A stretch of DNA of 64,000 nucleotides, taken from positions 1 through 64,000 of the forward strand of contig CACNRG010000001.1 of NCBI GenBank assembly GCA_902622805.1. Direction: 5' to 3'. Made by a program: the position numbers and the translations under genes. Numbering within the stretch: the first letter of the stretch is position 1; the number at the start of each line of letters is the position of its first letter. Source of the DNA: an uncultured Pelagibacteraceae bacterium (GTDB taxonomy: Bacteria; Pseudomonadota; Alphaproteobacteria; Pelagibacterales; Pelagibacteraceae). The notes under the pieces were generated by a model, which was not told the DNA's origin, ran no database searches, and was given only the letters and a program-made list of their open reading frames with translations. This document shows positions 537 to 17,970 of this stretch, piece after piece.

Positions 537-2024
537 ATGACAATTAACTTTAAAACACCAGAAATAAAAGAATTACAACCACGACTATTAGTATTAGGAG
601 TAGGTGGTGCAGGGGGAAATGCAATAAATGAAATGATAGATAACGGTATGCAAGGGGTAGAATTTGTTGCAGTAAATACGGATGCACAAGATTTAAAACA
701 TAGTAAAGCAAAAGCAAAAATACAAATAGGGTTAAATTTAACAAAAGGTTTAGGAGCCGGTGCAAAAATAGATATTGGTCAAGCTGCAGCTGATGAATCT
801 TTAAATGAAATTATAAACACTTTACAAGGAGCTAATATGGTTTTTATAGCTGCTGGTATGGGTGGTGGAACAGGAACTGGAGCAGCACATGTTATTGCAA
901 GAGCAGCAAAAGAATTAAATATTTTAACAGTAGGTGTTGTTACACTTCCTTTTTTATATGAAGGTCCTTCAAGAATGAGAAGAGCTCAACAAGGACTTGA
1001 AGAATTAAGAAAACATGTAGATACAATTATTGTGATTCCAAATCAAAATTTATTTAAAATTGCTAATGAACAAACCACTTTTAAGGAATCTTTTAACCTC
1101 TCAAACAATGTTTTAATGCATGGAGTTCAAAGCGTTACAGATTTAATGGTTAGACCAGGTATTATAAATTTAGATTTTGCAGATGTTGAAACTGTTATGG
1201 CCTCAATGGGCAAAGCAATGATGGGAACAGGCGAGTCTGAGGGAGAAGGTAGAGCTATGAAAGCTGCAGAAATGGCAATTAGCAATCCTTTAATTGATGA
1301 TTATACATTAAAAGGTGCAAAAGGATTACTAGTGAATATCACTGGGGGTGAAGATCTGAAACTTTTTGAAGTTGATGAAGTAGTTAATAAAATAAGGTCT
1401 GAAGTCGATGTGGAAGCTGAAGTTATTATTGGAGCTATAACAGATCCATCACTTGATGGAAAAATAAGAGTTTCAATTGTTGCAACTTCTTTGGATGGTC
1501 AACAACCTGAGTCAAAATCAGTAATTAATATGGTTCATAGAATTCAAAATAGAAATCCAGGTTATTCTGATTTTTCAAATTTTGGACCAACACCATCATT
1601 TAACTTTTCAACCAATAGTTCAAATCCAGTTTCTCACGGTGCGAATGCTTTAAAACTTGAAAATGAAATCACTTCCGAGATGGTTGATCAATCAAATTTA
1701 AAAAATGATATTAATAATACAAATAATCAATATCATGAAGAGTTATTAAAAAATCAAGAAGCTGAAAATATAGTAGAAAATTCTTCAATTGAGGATGAAG
1801 TTTCGTTTACTCAAGAAGCTACTCAAGAAGAAAATTCCTCAATCGATCACGAAATCAAAAATGATTTAAGTGAGTTTGGAGTAGAATCAGACTCTCCAGA
1901 TTTGTTTAATAATTCTCCAGAAAGTGAGTCTCCAAATTCAGATGAATTACTTTCTTCAGAGAATGATGACGATCAAGAGGATGATTTAGAGATACCGGCA
2001 TTTTTAAGAAGACAAAAGAATTAA
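537..2024 (+). CDS. ftsZ: cell division protein FtsZ
   Basis: Tubulin-like GTPase that polymerises into the Z-ring at midcell. The GTP-binding signature GGGTGTG lies at residues 109-115 and the catalytic T7 loop NLDFADVETVM at about 211-221. A long acidic, Asn/Ser/Glu-rich disordered linker (about 330-480) leads to the conserved C-terminal peptide IPAFLRRQ at 486-493. I chose the ATG at 537 because GAGGGGGA (525-532) is a good ribosome site just upstream; a longer start at 486 would run back into mraZ. It normally lies at the far end of the cluster after ftsA. Here it is second, between mraZ and rsmH. Confidence 0.97.
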   Translation: MTINFKTPEIKELQPRLLVLGVGGAGGNAINEMIDNGMQGVEFVAVNTDAQDLKHSKAKAKIQIGLNLTKGLGAGAKIDIGQAAADESLNEIINTLQGANMVFIAAGMGGGTGTGAAHVIARAAKELNILTVGVVTLPFLYEGPSRMRRAQQGLEELRKHVDTIIVIPNQNLFKIANEQTTFKESFNLSNNVLMHGVQSVTDLMVRPGIINLDFADVETVMASMGKAMMGTGESEGEGRAMKAAEMAISNPLIDDYTLKGAKGLLVNITGGEDLKLFEVDEVVNKIRSEVDVEAEVIIGAITDPSLDGKIRVSIVATSLDGQQPESKSVINMVHRIQNRNPGYSDFSNFGPTPSFNFSTNSSNPVSHGANALKLENEITSEMVDQSNLKNDINNTNNQYHEELLKNQEAENIVENSSIEDEVSFTQEATQEENSSIDHEIKNDLSEFGVESDSPDLFNNSPESESPNSDELLSSENDDDQEDDLEIPAFLRRQKN

Positions 2025-5044: not shown

Positions 5045-7900
5045 ATGCTCCTTGGAAATTTTATAAAGAATATAAATAAAAATTATTATAAAATTAATTT
5101 CTCTGGCTTAGCTTTCAATAGCAAAAAAGTTAAAAAGAATAATATTTTTTTTGCTATTAGAGGAAATAAATTTGATGGCAATGAATATATAATAGACGCA
5201 ATTAATCGTGGTGCCAAAATAGTAGTTTCAGATAAAAATTTAAAAATAGATAAAAAAAATTTGATTTTCATTAAAGATAGAAATCCAAGAAAATTACTTG
5301 CTGAAATATCTTATAAATTGTTAATTAAAAAACCTAAAAATTTAGTTGCAGTTACAGGGACGAACGGAAAATCTTCAGTATCCAATTTTTATTATCAAAT
5401 TTTTAATTTGAATAAAAAAAGATCAGCATCAATAGGAACTATTGGTATTCAATTTAATAATAAGAACAAAGAAATAGATAATACAACTCTTGATCCAATT
5501 AGATTAAGTGAAACAATTAACTTTTTAAATAAAAAAAAAATAAATAATATTATTTTAGAAGCTTCAAGCCATGGTTTAAAACAAAATAGATTAGATGGAT
5601 TATTATTTGATATCGGTATATTCACAAATTTATCACATGATCATCTAGACTATCATAAAAATTTACAAGAATATTTTAATGCAAAATTATATTTATTTAA
5701 AAATTTAATTAAAAAAAAAGGGACTATTATTTCAGATAAAACAATTCCGTATTACAAACACTTTAAAAAAATTGCAAACCAAAAAAAATTGAAAATATTT
5801 ACAATATACGGTCCAAACTCAGATTTGGAATTAGTCTCACATCAATATGATAACGATCAACAAATTTTAAAAGTTAATTTTAAGAATAAGAAAAAAATCT
5901 TAACATTTAAATTAAATTTAATTGGAAAAATTCAAATCAAGAATATTTTAATGGCTATGTTAGCTGCAGAAAAAAGTGGTCTTAATTTAGCCTCTATTGC
6001 AAAAGTAATGAATAAGATTAAGCCTGCAGAAGGAAGATTAGAAAATATTGGCAAATTGAAAGATAATAGCAAAGTAATTTTAGACTACGCTCATACACCA
6101 GATGCATTAAAAACTGTTTTAAACAATGTTAGAGAACAGTTTCCATTTTCAAAAATTAGATTAATTTTTGGCTGTGGTGGCGATCGAGACAAAACTAAAA
6201 GATTAAAAATGGGTGAAATCGCATCAAAATTTGCAGATATTATATATCTTACTGATGATAATCCCAGAGGAGAAAATCCAAATAAGATAAGAGTCCAAAT
6301 AAAAAAGGGAATTAGAGGAAGAAATCTAATTGAGATTTCAAATAGGAGAATAGCCATAAACAAGTGTGTCAATGATCTTCAAAGTGGTGAGATTGCAATT
6401 ATCGCAGGCAAAGGTCACGAAAAAACTCAAGAATACAAAAATAAAAGATATTATTTTTCTGATCGAGATGAAATTTTAAAATCGATAAATATTAAAAATA
6501 AGAAACTATTTTCTGATTTAAGATTGAATATCATTCAAGAAAAAACAAAATCGATTCATAAAAAATTAAAATTTGATAAAGCATCAATTAACTCTAAAGA
6601 CATTAAAAATAATGATATATTTTTTGCAATAAAAGGAAAAAAAAAAGATGGAAGTAGATTTTTGAGAGAGGCTTTTAAAAAAAAATGTTCCTTATTAGTT
6701 ACTCATAAAATAAATAAAAATATACCATTATCAAAACAAATTAAGGTTAAAAATACTCTTAATTTTTTAACTGAATGTGCTTTAGACTATAGAAAAAACA
6801 TCAATACAAACATAATAGGAATTACGGGAAGTTGTGGTAAAACCACACTAAAAAAATTACTTGGAGAAAGTTTATCTAAAATCTCAAAAACATATTTCTC
6901 TCCAAAATCATTTAATAATAAATATGGCGTGCCCTTAAGTTTATTAAATTTAAAACAAAATAAAGAATTTGGAATATTTGAGGTTGGAATGGATAAAAAA
7001 GGAGAGATAGATTTCTTATCTGATATTATAAAACCTAATTTAGCTATAATAACAAATATTAGTTATGCTCATTCTAAAAATTTCAAAAATATAAACGGAA
7101 TAGCCAATGCAAAGTCAGAGATTATTGATAATGTAGTAAATGGAGGAAGTATCATATTAAATAAAGATGATAAATTTTATTCATATTTAAAAAAAAAAGC
7201 TATCAAAAGAAATTTAAAAATTTTTTCATTTAGTTTAAAAAGCAAAACTAGCTATTCAAGTTTAAGTAAAATTATAAAAATTGGTAAAAAATTTAAAATT
7301 TATTTTAAAGTAGATTCAAGAAAATATTTTTTTTATTCTAATAGCAGTTCACAAAATCATATACAGAATCTATTAGCTGCTATAACAGGTATAAGTTTAT
7401 TTTTTGATTTAAGTAACATTTCAAAAAAAATCTTTTTGAATTATAAAATCCCTGATGGTCGGGGTGATTTTTCAAAAATAAAATTTAAAAATAAGATTAT
7501 TAATTTTGTTGATGAAAGTTATAATTCAAATCCATTATCATTAAAAACTGCATTAATAAATTTTGGTAATAATATAATAAATAAAAATAGTAAGCATGTT
7601 TTACTTGGAGATATGTTAGAATTAGGAAATAACTCAATTAAACATCATATATCTGTTGCTAAAATAATAAATAGATTAGATATTGATAAAGTTCATATTT
7701 ATGGAAATCATATTAAAAAAACTTATGAAGCCATAAAAAAAAATAAACGAGGATTGATTTTAGATAATCTCTCAAAAATTGAGGATTTATTAATAAAAAA
7801 AATAAATACTAATGATTTTTTGATGATTAAAGGTTCCAATTCTACTGGTCTTTTTAAGCAATCCCAATTATTAAAATTAAATAAATTGTATGCTTTATAG
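5045..7900 (+). CDS. MurE-MurF fusion ligase
   Basis: One 951-aa reading frame carries two complete Mur ligases. The N-terminal part (about 1-485) is MurE, adding the third stem residue: P-loop TGTNGKS at 104-110, and DNPR at 405-408, the signature of meso-diaminopimelate-specific MurE. The C-terminal part (about 490-951) is MurF, adding D-Ala-D-Ala: P-loop TGSCGKT at 594-600, and a substrate-domain motif (NNDIFFAIKG) that echoes NNIFFAIRG in the MurE half. In most bacteria these are separate adjacent genes. There is no internal stop or start at the junction, so the fusion looks genuine. It overlaps mraY by 11 bp. Confidence 0.95.
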   Translation: MLLGNFIKNINKNYYKINFSGLAFNSKKVKKNNIFFAIRGNKFDGNEYIIDAINRGAKIVVSDKNLKIDKKNLIFIKDRNPRKLLAEISYKLLIKKPKNLVAVTGTNGKSSVSNFYYQIFNLNKKRSASIGTIGIQFNNKNKEIDNTTLDPIRLSETINFLNKKKINNIILEASSHGLKQNRLDGLLFDIGIFTNLSHDHLDYHKNLQEYFNAKLYLFKNLIKKKGTIISDKTIPYYKHFKKIANQKKLKIFTIYGPNSDLELVSHQYDNDQQILKVNFKNKKKILTFKLNLIGKIQIKNILMAMLAAEKSGLNLASIAKVMNKIKPAEGRLENIGKLKDNSKVILDYAHTPDALKTVLNNVREQFPFSKIRLIFGCGGDRDKTKRLKMGEIASKFADIIYLTDDNPRGENPNKIRVQIKKGIRGRNLIEISNRRIAINKCVNDLQSGEIAIIAGKGHEKTQEYKNKRYYFSDRDEILKSINIKNKKLFSDLRLNIIQEKTKSIHKKLKFDKASINSKDIKNNDIFFAIKGKKKDGSRFLREAFKKKCSLLVTHKINKNIPLSKQIKVKNTLNFLTECALDYRKNINTNIIGITGSCGKTTLKKLLGESLSKISKTYFSPKSFNNKYGVPLSLLNLKQNKEFGIFEVGMDKKGEIDFLSDIIKPNLAIITNISYAHSKNFKNINGIANAKSEIIDNVVNGGSIILNKDDKFYSYLKKKAIKRNLKIFSFSLKSKTSYSSLSKIIKIGKKFKIYFKVDSRKYFFYSNSSSQNHIQNLLAAITGISLFFDLSNISKKIFLNYKIPDGRGDFSKIKFKNKIINFVDESYNSNPLSLKTALINFGNNIINKNSKHVLLGDMLELGNNSIKHHISVAKIINRLDIDKVHIYGNHIKKTYEAIKKNKRGLILDNLSKIEDLLIKKINTNDFLMIKGSNSTGLFKQSQLLKLNKLYAL

Positions 7901-14732: not shown

Positions 14733-15643
14733 AAAATAAGATTCTAATAATTTCAGGTGGTTATTCAAAAGAACGCGAGATAAGCCTACAAACTGGTAAT
14801 CAAGTTGCTAAAGAATTAAAAAAAAACGGATATAAAATTAAAATTTGTGAACCAGATTATAAGCTTATTAGTTTAGCTAAAAGTTATAAACCTGACATTA
14901 TATTTAATGCTTTACATGGGCAATATGGTGAAGATGGATATATTCAATCAATTTTAGAAAATATTGGAATTCCATATACTCATTCAGGAATAATTGCTTC
15001 TGCTAAAGCTATGGATAAAGAAATATCAAAAAAAATATTTATTCAGAATAATATATTAACTCCAAAATTTATAAAACATTCCTCAGACGATCAATATCAT
15101 AAATTAGATATCAAAATTAGAAAAAAATTTGGATATCCAGTGGTTATAAAACCACTTAACGAAGGATCCAGTGTAAATGTTTATATTTGTAATAAAGATA
15201 ATTTAAGATCTAGATTAAAAAAACTTAAATTTTATAATGAAATTTTAGTTGAAGAATTTATTCCTGGACGTGAAATTCAAGCTGCAATTATAGGAAAAAA
15301 AAAATTAGGTGCAATTGAATTAAAACCTAAAAGACAATTTTATGATTATAAAGCAAAGTATAATTCTAAAGCAAAAACTAAACATATTATTCCAGTTAAT
15401 TTAAGAAAAAGTAAATTTGATGAATTAATGAATATTTCTAAAAAAGCTCATGATTTATTAGGATGTAGAGGAGTAACTAGATCTGATTTTAAATTTTATA
15501 AAGATAAATTTTATCTTTTAGAGATAAATACTCAACCAGGAATGACCAAGCTTTCTCTAGTTCCAGAAATATCAGCGTATAGAGGTATAAACTTTATTAA
15601 TTTAATAAAATTAATTCTCAAGGATGCAGAAACGAATAAGTAA
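14729..15643 (+). CDS. ddl: D-alanine:D-alanine ligase
   Basis: ATP-grasp ligase making the D-Ala-D-Ala dipeptide used by MurF. Visible are GGYSKEREISLQTG at the N-terminus, NALHGQYGEDGYIQ, the ATP-grasp lysine segment (VVIKPLNEGSSV), EEFIPGREI and the metal-binding LEINTQPGMT. The length is 304 aa. The start is a TTG inside the murB stop (TTGA), one of several non-ATG coupled starts in this cluster. It overlaps ftsQ by 20 bp. Confidence 0.93.
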   Translation: MKNKILIISGGYSKEREISLQTGNQVAKELKKNGYKIKICEPDYKLISLAKSYKPDIIFNALHGQYGEDGYIQSILENIGIPYTHSGIIASAKAMDKEISKKIFIQNNILTPKFIKHSSDDQYHKLDIKIRKKFGYPVVIKPLNEGSSVNVYICNKDNLRSRLKKLKFYNEILVEEFIPGREIQAAIIGKKKLGAIELKPKRQFYDYKAKYNSKAKTKHIIPVNLRKSKFDELMNISKKAHDLLGCRGVTRSDFKFYKDKFYLLEINTQPGMTKLSLVPEISAYRGINFINLIKLILKDAETNK

Positions 15644-16295
15644 AAAAATTTTATCATATCTATTTGTCCTATTATTATTAGGCTCACCCAATAACAAAGA
15701 ATTTTTAGAAATTTATTTTAATAAAAATCATAGTTTTGAAATTTTAAGTTTAAGTGAGTTTGATGATACTGAGATTGTTAATGAGCTATTAAATCATAAA
15801 TACCAAAACCTACTTTTATTAAAAAAAGAAAAAATTATAGAAACTATTAAAAAGAAAAAAACGATAGAAAATTACTATTTTTTTAAAAATTATCCATCTA
15901 AGTTGATTATTAAATTTAAGAAAACACAATTTTTGGCAGTAACTAAAAAAGATGGAATAAATTTTTATATCGGATCGAATGGTCATCTAATCAAAGCTAA
16001 AAATAATCTTGACGACTTACCAATTATATTTGGAAGCGTAGATGTGGATGAATTTTTAAAATTAAAAGATTTAATTGATAGGTCTATTTTTAATTACAAA
16101 GATGTCAAAAATTTATATTATTTTAAATCTAAAAGATGGGATATTGAGACTAAAGACGGGTTATTATTCAAATTGCCACGAGATAATTTAACTAAATCTT
16201 TTGAATTATTAATGAATATTCTTAATAAAAAAGATCTTCAGAATATTGATGTTATAGACTTAAGACAAAATAATCAGATTATTTTAAATGGATAA
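15624..16295 (+). CDS. ftsQ: cell division protein FtsQ-like
   Basis: Bitopic divisome protein: a short cytoplasmic N-terminus, one hydrophobic segment (about residues 9-20), then a periplasmic region matching the POTRA plus beta layout of FtsQ, including YPSKLIIKFKKTQFLAV and YIGSNGHLI. At 223 aa it is somewhat short for FtsQ. Identification rests on position between ddl and the ftsA slot plus these weak motifs. It overlaps the next gene by 8 bp. Confidence 0.8.
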   Translation: MQKRISKKILSYLFVLLLLGSPNNKEFLEIYFNKNHSFEILSLSEFDDTEIVNELLNHKYQNLLLLKKEKIIETIKKKKTIENYYFFKNYPSKLIIKFKKTQFLAVTKKDGINFYIGSNGHLIKAKNNLDDLPIIFGSVDVDEFLKLKDLIDRSIFNYKDVKNLYYFKSKRWDIETKDGLLFKLPRDNLTKSFELLMNILNKKDLQNIDVIDLRQNNQIILNG

Positions 16296-16986
16296 TCAAA
16301 AAAAATCTTTTTTTTTAGTGATCAGACCAAATCATTTTATTTTACATGCTATTAGTGAAAATTGTGAGTTATTGCATAATGAGGAATATTTTTTTAATGC
16401 TGAAGATCATAAGGATAATTTAAATATTCTAAAAAAATTTTTAGATGAAAATATAATAAATATAGAAAAAAAATTAAGTTCTTATATTGAGGATATTTAT
16501 CTAATTGTTGATGATAAAAACTTTATTAGCATTGATCTATCTTTAATTAAAGATTTCAAAAACTTATCTGGCAATATTAACGATAATTTAAGCGATTTAT
16601 CAAATATTAAAAATAGTGTATTAAAATCTAACACTGATTTTCAATTATCACATATGATTATTAATAAATTTATCGTAAATAAAAAAGATTATTTAATTTT
16701 ACCTGATCAAATTGATAAGAAAAATTTTTTTTTAGAACTAAGATTTATATGTCTAAGAATAAAAACATTTTTGAATTTAGAAAAAATTTTATCAAAATAT
16801 CAAATAACTATTAAAAAAGTATTAAGTTATAAATATGTAGTTTCCTTTAAAACAGACAAAACAGATCATATTTCCCTAGTAGCTAATAAATTAATTAATG
16901 GATTTAATAAAAATGAAGTTAATTTCAAAAAAAAACATCCAAAAAATGCTGGTTTTTTCGAAAAATTTTTCAAATTTTTTAGCTAA
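16288..16986 (+). CDS. FtsA-like remnant lacking the ATPase half
   Basis: A 232-aa protein in the exact position of ftsA (after ftsQ, before lpxC). FtsA is normally about 400-440 aa, an actin-like ATPase tethering FtsZ to the membrane. Here the first strand (LVIRPNHFILHAI) lacks the phosphate-loop residues of FtsA. A stretch near residue 170 (NLEKILSKYQITIKKVLSYKYV) resembles the end of the FtsA 1C domain. The ATP-binding 2A/2B part is absent, and the chain then jumps to a C-terminal amphipathic helix (NAGFFEKFFKFFS) like the FtsA membrane-targeting sequence. Homology is my inference from position and these weak matches; it could be an unrelated protein. Confidence 0.6.
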   Translation: MDNQKKSFFLVIRPNHFILHAISENCELLHNEEYFFNAEDHKDNLNILKKFLDENIINIEKKLSSYIEDIYLIVDDKNFISIDLSLIKDFKNLSGNINDNLSDLSNIKNSVLKSNTDFQLSHMIINKFIVNKKDYLILPDQIDKKNFFLELRFICLRIKTFLNLEKILSKYQITIKKVLSYKYVVSFKTDKTDHISLVANKLINGFNKNEVNFKKKHPKNAGFFEKFFKFFS

Positions 16987-17049: not shown

Positions 17050-17970
17050 ATGTCTTTGTTAACTCAAAAAACAATAAAAAAATCAATAAAATTTCAAGGT
17101 GTTGGTTTGCATAGTGGTAAAATAGCAAATATATGTTTGAAAAGATCAGATCCTGACACTGGTATAATTTTTAAAAGAATAGATCTAAAAAATAATAACT
17201 TAGTTTATCCAAATTTTAATAATGTAAGTAATACATCCTTAAACACTACAGTATCTAACCAACATGGTGTTAAAGTTTCAACAATTGAACATTTGATGGG
17301 AGCATTATTTGGATTAGGAATAGATAATGTACTAATTGAGATTGATAATGAGGAGGTTCCTATTTTGGATGGTTCAGCTAAGGAATTTATAAATAAAATT
17401 TTGTCAAGTGATTTTGAGATTTCAGATAAACCTATTAAAGTTATTAAAATAAACAAGCAGGTTGAATTTAAAGATGGTGATAAATTTATTTCTATTGGAC
17501 CTTCAAAATTAAGCTTAGATATTGATTTTGAGTTAAAATATAAAAATAAAAAAATTGGAAATCAAAGAAATAAAATCAGTGTATATGAAGATGATTTAAA
17601 TGAGATTTATAATTCTAGAACTTTTTGTTTATATGAAGATATAGAATTTATCAAAAAGAATGGTCTTGCTAAAGGTGGCAGCTTAGAAAATGCAATAGTA
17701 GTAAAAGGAGATGAAATACTCAACAAAGACGGCTTGAGAAATAATAAAGAGTTTGTAAATCACAAAATATTAGATTGTATAGGAGACTTATATACATCTG
17801 GTTATAGAATAATTGGCAATATAAAAACTTCACAAGGTGGTCACTATTTGACTAACCAAGTATTACGAAAAGTGTTAAATGATAAAAAAAATTTCTCTAT
17901 AATTGAGATTAGAGGTCGTAATCTACCACATACCACAATTAACAGAGATATATTAAGATCTATAGCATAA
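17050..17970 (+). CDS. lpxC: UDP-3-O-acyl-N-acetylglucosamine deacetylase LpxC
   Basis: Zinc amidase that performs the committed step of lipid A synthesis. Zinc ligands are clear: H81 in TIEHLMGAL, H238 and D242 in NHKILDCIGDLY; the catalytic H265 is in QGGHYLT. Substrate loops PILDGSA and KGGSLENAIVV are also present. The length of 306 aa is typical. It follows the FtsA-like gene after 63 bp, so it may have its own promoter. Confidence 0.96.
   Translation: MSLLTQKTIKKSIKFQGVGLHSGKIANICLKRSDPDTGIIFKRIDLKNNNLVYPNFNNVSNTSLNTTVSNQHGVKVSTIEHLMGALFGLGIDNVLIEIDNEEVPILDGSAKEFINKILSSDFEISDKPIKVIKINKQVEFKDGDKFISIGPSKLSLDIDFELKYKNKKIGNQRNKISVYEDDLNEIYNSRTFCLYEDIEFIKKNGLAKGGSLENAIVVKGDEILNKDGLRNNKEFVNHKILDCIGDLYTSGYRIIGNIKTSQGGHYLTNQVLRKVLNDKKNFSIIEIRGRNLPHTTINRDILRSIA

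Follow-up and report, generated by a model that had tools for sequence, protein, structure and literature searches.

The DNA analysed in this work, a stretch of 64,000 nucleotides referred to below as the window, belongs to a SAR11-like draft genome (942 kb, 82% complete), and the gene present in the ftsA slot of its dcw cluster is an ftsA from which the whole of domain 2 is missing, while 1A with its last helix, domain 1C and the membrane helix are retained. The explanation that we favor as a whole, to which we assign a probability of about 0.72, is that this gene (named here mini-ftsA) specifies an ATP-independent membrane adaptor which has kept the divisome-facing half of FtsA. The usual view of FtsA is that of a Z-ring tether which binds ATP and forms filaments. 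Most members of a free-living and highly successful genus, in which the FtsZ tail is unchanged, have lost the whole of domain 2. Such a situation would constitute a natural experiment in which the jobs of FtsA are split, membrane and divisome contact being kept, and ATP, filament and known FtsZ contact being lost. No description of such a reduced FtsA was found in a literature search on the FtsA or divisome of SAR11/Pelagibacter, whose scope did not extend to most subscription papers, and novelty is unproven.

Genomic context and domain organization of mini-ftsA

The gene order ddl-ftsQ-mini-ftsA-lpxC, followed by bamD and ligA, corresponds to the ftsA slot of the dcw cluster, with mini-ftsA located after ftsQ as expected of FtsA and with an 8-base overlap between its ATG start and the ftsQ stop (Table 1). 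The flanks of this slot, together with a C-terminal helix which is amphipathic (Eisenberg moment of 0.60) and whose residues F224, E225, F227, F228 and F231 are invariant across 58 sequences, agree with a previous interpretation made from the letters alone (hereafter the sequence-only reading), in which a 232-aa gene with an FtsA-like amphipathic C-terminal helix was recognized at this position. Elsewhere in the window, murE and murF form a single ORF of 951 aa (window positions 5045-7900) containing two Mur_ligase_M and two Mur_ligase_C stretches.

Table 1. Coordinates of mini-ftsA, its domains and the associated cluster genes in the window.
Feature	Position	Strand	Description
ftsZ	537..2024	+	Same cluster, at its front
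ftsQ	15624..16295	+	PF03799, E 5.6e-9; overlaps the mini-ftsA start
mini-ftsA	16288..16986	+	232 aa; FtsA 1A and 1C plus membrane helix, domain 2 missing
Domain 1A, first part	16288..16515	+	Residues 1-76; boundary approximate
Domain 1C (SHS2)	16516..16755	+	Residues ~77-156; boundary approximate
Domain 1A, second part	16756..16848	+	Residues ~157-187
Junction	16849..16869	+	~145-150 residues of 2A/2B missing relative to full-length relatives; from alignments
Last helix	16870..16899	+	Residues 195-204; follows the adenosine motif in full-length FtsA and packs on 1A
Linker	16900..16950	+	G-x-N-x-x-E-[VI] motif at 16900-16917
C-terminal amphipathic membrane helix	16951..16983	+	GFFEKFFKFFS
lpxC	17050..17970	+	E 1.9e-91; marks the downstream side of the slot

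In the first part of 1A the phosphate-1 motif DxGSS is replaced, the window protein having VIRPNH. The 1C domain carries the FtsA-type H...Y.ID stretch around H122, a residue which is invariant in the 58 aligned sequences, and PF02491 (SHS2_FTSA) is matched by 18 of the 58 aligned members; a PF02491 match is also seen at residues 93-154 of the copy L011. The return of the last helix of FtsA to 1A is a feature of the actin fold, and is consistent with a VIA-align superposition that reaches FtsA residue ~375-392. The linker motif, which was located in the window and at five further loci, is found in the short forms and, whole or in part, in most of the HTCC1062-type full-length FtsAs, and is missing from the other long-form group of the genus.

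Descent of mini-FtsA from FtsA

The window's 232-aa protein returns zero Pfam or NCBIfam matches, even at E 10, and because it is without a match of its own it is not recognizable as FtsA by profile; this is the one observation that favors the presence of an unrelated small protein in the ftsA slot. Its relatives and its predicted structure point the other way. An AlphaFold2 model built from 58 window and named-genome sequences (pLDDT 84, pTM 0.80) comprises domain 1A with inserted 1C (SHS2), and when compared by Foldseek to the PDB gives FtsA at each of ranks 1-19, with E-values from 2.7e-11 to 2.3e-8 and TM scores on query length of 0.50-0.64. VIA-align to FtsA yields Z scores of 11.2-14.6 and superposes model residues 5-209 on FtsA 4-375, so that the alignment steps over domain 2. 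The structure prediction proposed as a check in the sequence-only reading thus indicates FtsA 1A plus 1C, and not an unrelated fold.

The profile search of SAR11 homologues, advised in the same place, found the NCBIfam ftsA profile TIGR01174 in 45 of the 58 aligned members (E up to 1; best 2.8e-11), the matches covering only model positions 45-186 of 371 in the members inspected. The short members inspected attain at most 40 bits and miss the NCBIfam equivalog cut-off of 175.85 bits, which is also missed by a full-length relative from the genus (93 bits). A profile of the short forms retrieved from the PDB only FtsA chains up to E 1, the matches being weak (E 0.03-0.085), and the comparison of the short-form with the long-form profile gave 99.2%; the long forms are themselves FtsA (PDB 1e4f at E 1.4e-13; Pfam FtsA above cut-off). 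The short forms are, in addition, colinear with same-genus full-length FtsA at both ends. Judged by these relatives and by the model, the window protein is a true FtsA descendant, and an unrelated occupant of the slot, refuted by fold, profile matches and colinear alignment, is extremely improbable.

Among the known systems compared, FtsA (TIGR01174; PDB 1E4F/1E4G/4A2A from T. maritima, 7Q6D from E. coli, 7Q6F from V. maritimus) is the closest: mini-FtsA shares with it 1A, the 1C fold, the last helix, the C-terminal amphipathic helix and a dcw position behind ftsQ, and differs from it in having neither the 2A/2B block with the FtsZ-tail site of 2B nor the three nucleotide motifs, and in its length of 232 aa versus 370-420 aa. 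A precedent for the reduction of an actin-fold protein to an adaptor is provided by EpsL/GspL, whose cytoplasmic domain (PDB 1W97, 4PHT) is a reduced actin-like fold of similar size (~226-238 residues) which matches the mini-FtsA model with Foldseek E-values of 4.5e-6 and 6.4e-5 and VIA-align Z scores of 10.2-10.5. It differs, however, in belonging to type II secretion, in its gene context and in matching more weakly than any FtsA. PilM (PDB 5EOU, 2YCH) likewise has an FtsA-like fold with a 1C domain, and its IA-IC cleft binds the cytoplasmic tail of PilN (PMC7613929), but it is a full two-domain protein of the type IV pilus and its Foldseek E-values are 3e-6 or worse.

Extent of the loss

Within the genus, the slot between ftsQ and lpxC contains either a short form (220-245 aa) or a full-length FtsA (370-401 aa), with no intermediate sizes. 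All the intact copies collected amount to 109 short and 74 long, with none of 260-330 aa. The short forms track the long ones for ~190 residues, lose ~145-150 residues, and rejoin them at the last helix, the linker and the membrane helix. The lost block is one internal gap which encompasses the phosphate-2 (IDIGxxxT) and adenosine (GxGS) motifs together with the 2B region, domain 2A/2B with its FtsZ tail site being absent as a block. That the protein leaves no room for 2A/2B, as had been remarked from its length, is exact, the full-length relatives from the same genus showing that domain 2 is what is missing. The absence of recognizable ATP-binding motifs also extends beyond the window protein, since the phosphate-1 pattern DxG[STH] and the adenosine pattern GxGS each occur in 0 of the 109 intact short forms; none of the nucleotide motifs of FtsA (phosphate-1, phosphate-2, adenosine) is found in mini-FtsA.

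A search for a separate full-length FtsA in the same genome, which the sequence-only reading had named as a test, detected none elsewhere in the source draft (82% complete), the only other PF14450 match being MreB, and this candidate was rejected. A two-gene FtsA whose domain 2 would be supplied by another ORF was rejected as well, a single PF14450 match (MreB) being seen in each of the four complete short-form genomes checked, compared to two PF14450 matches in long-form genomes.

In two other SAR11 genera (g5 and g7), FtsA is of full length (396-405 aa) and without the phosphate-1 and adenosine motifs in all 14 copies examined. By their motif content, SAR11 seem to have dropped the nucleotide function of FtsA by two routes.

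FtsZ and other division proteins

The tail peptide of the window ftsZ, DDLEIPAFLRRQKN (1980-2021), is an ordinary one, and the short- and long-form genomes examined share the tail LEIPAFLRRQ, which varies only slightly among them. The sequence-only reading had connected the reduction of FtsA with an ftsZ that had moved away, and this part of it is not supported: ftsZ is located ~14-16 kb upstream of ftsA, in the same cluster and at the same distance as in relatives with full-length FtsA, and its relocation is therefore rejected as the cause of the reduction.

SepF and ZipA, whose folds are unrelated to that of FtsA, are the FtsZ anchors that would fill the role of tether. The suggestion that FtsZ might be anchored by something other than FtsA was pursued by searching 14 SAR11 genomes, in which SepF (PF04472) gave no match above cut-off and ZipA (ZipA_C, PF04354) gave no match, the control genomes being positive for the former and the E. 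coli control for the latter. The failure to detect ZipA and SepF in these genomes, combined with the unchanged FtsZ tail, implies either a new tail-binding mode of mini-FtsA or another anchor. No FtsN bearing a cytoplasmic tail was detected; the SPOR matches are lipoproteins only, so the usual partner of 1C may be absent, and FtsN was rejected as the partner of mini-FtsA. One such lipoprotein, of 255-284 aa, with a weak SPOR match and without an FtsN-like cytoplasmic tail, is present at five loci in short-form genomes, and an equal threshold gave no such match in the long-form genomes that were searched.

Proposed function of mini-FtsA and alternatives

In E. coli, 2B is needed for FtsZ binding, its deletion abolishing the interaction, stopping division and giving filaments, and 1C is required for self-interaction and for the recruitment of FtsQ and FtsN (PMC4281207). 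FtsA filaments are built by longitudinal contacts of IIA/IIB and lateral contacts of IC, and the IA-IC cleft is where FtsN binds (PMC7613929). Mini-FtsA is accordingly expected to lack ATP binding, 2B-type FtsZ binding and, because longitudinal contacts use IIA/IIB, actin-type filaments. We propose that it would act as a nucleotide-independent membrane adaptor in which the divisome-facing half of FtsA is retained, where 1C, the domain which in E. coli is self-interacting and recruits FtsQ and FtsN, would be held at the membrane by the C-terminal helix, and where FtsZ would be tethered via a new surface of mini-FtsA or via another protein.

These two ways of tethering are to be weighed against each other. 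Mini-FtsA may still be the FtsZ tether, with the tail docking on a new 1A/1C surface, such as the face bared by the loss of domain 2; the LEIPAFLRRQ tail kept in the short-form genomes examined, the retention of the membrane helix in a single-copy gene and the failure to find ZipA or SepF in the 14 genomes are consistent with this. Conversely, deletion of 2B in E. coli ends FtsZ binding and results in filaments (PMC4281207), and the FtsZ tail peptide has other binding proteins in other bacteria (PMC5832921), so that a conserved tail is no specific evidence for mini-FtsA, and we regard a new docking surface as possible at somewhat less than even odds. A different and as yet unrecognized protein may instead anchor FtsZ, mini-FtsA only recruiting or regulating later divisome proteins. 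This is suggested by the loss of the sole known FtsZ-binding subdomain next to an unchanged tail peptide, and by the full-length FtsAs of g5 and g7, which are also without ATP motifs, as if the order could do without the actin role of FtsA; against it, no candidate was found, ZipA and SepF having given no match, and we hold it with similarly tentative confidence. It is likewise a tentative proposition, a little below an even chance, that a large clade belonging to one of the most abundant groups of marine bacteria divides without an actin-type FtsA, using mini-FtsA as a divisome adaptor and placing FtsZ on an undescribed anchor.

Distribution, selection and origin of the short form

A survey of 143 genomes, each at least 90% complete, yielded for the genus 64 intact short forms (the window's genome excluded) versus 30 long ones, the remainder consisting of 2 frameshifted short forms and of genomes in which the gene is cut by contig ends or without a match. 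Within the genus, the short form thus predominates. FtsA is of full length (about 396-420 aa) in other genera of the same family and in a further SAR11 family, and at 80 named-genome loci, nearly all from Pelagibacteraceae single-cell genomes or MAGs, all intact copies are short (220-244 aa). Among complete genomes, one of 1,308,759 bases has the long form (370 aa), one of 1,456,888 bases the short form (233 aa), and one of 1,343,202 bases a short form with a frameshift. Many single-cell contigs break off inside mini-ftsA (18 such contigs were recorded), which is probably an effect of amplification or assembly. Eight g1 genomes without a match were considered as possible cases of gene absence; for seven of these the assembly does not contain the lpxC locus either, and the eighth (G168) has an lpxC that begins near base 131 of the contig.

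For mini-ftsA, which is the sole gene of the FtsA slot and is present as a single copy, dN/dS between close pairs is 0.10-0.33, compared to 0.14-0.23 for full-length FtsA of the genus and 0.05-0.14 for lpxC. It is not a chance ORF, because a gene of the same length occupies the same slot in more than 100 genomes with such dN/dS values, and these substitution patterns indicate that mini-ftsA is a working gene under purifying selection. A decaying remnant heading for loss might be read from the G+C content of 18.5%, the lowest among those cluster genes of the window for which it was measured, and from frameshifts present in two genomes (G012 and G312), both within one A-run region close to the conserved E60-K61 codons. 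Yet length is held at 220-245 aa in more than 100 genomes, dN/dS stays at 0.10-0.33 and residues of the membrane helix are invariant, which makes decay very unlikely. The frameshifts themselves could reflect sequencing error, slippage or decay, and could mean that the gene is dispensable in some strains. Progressive erosion, as might be read from matches of 27-179 aa, was rejected, the four that were checked stopping at contig ends.

A tree built from the FtsA region common to short and long forms places all short forms in a single clade with a support of 100, while trees of the neighboring genes (lpxC; ddl, ftsQ and lpxC combined) require two to four changes. Two independent excisions, as suggested by the latter, are not required, a single short clade not being rejected by the neighbors (p 0.52) nor by the 1C core alone (p 0.73), and from these phylogenies one excision suffices to explain the short forms. 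In the neighbor tree, the HTCC1062-type long group branches as sister to the main short clade.
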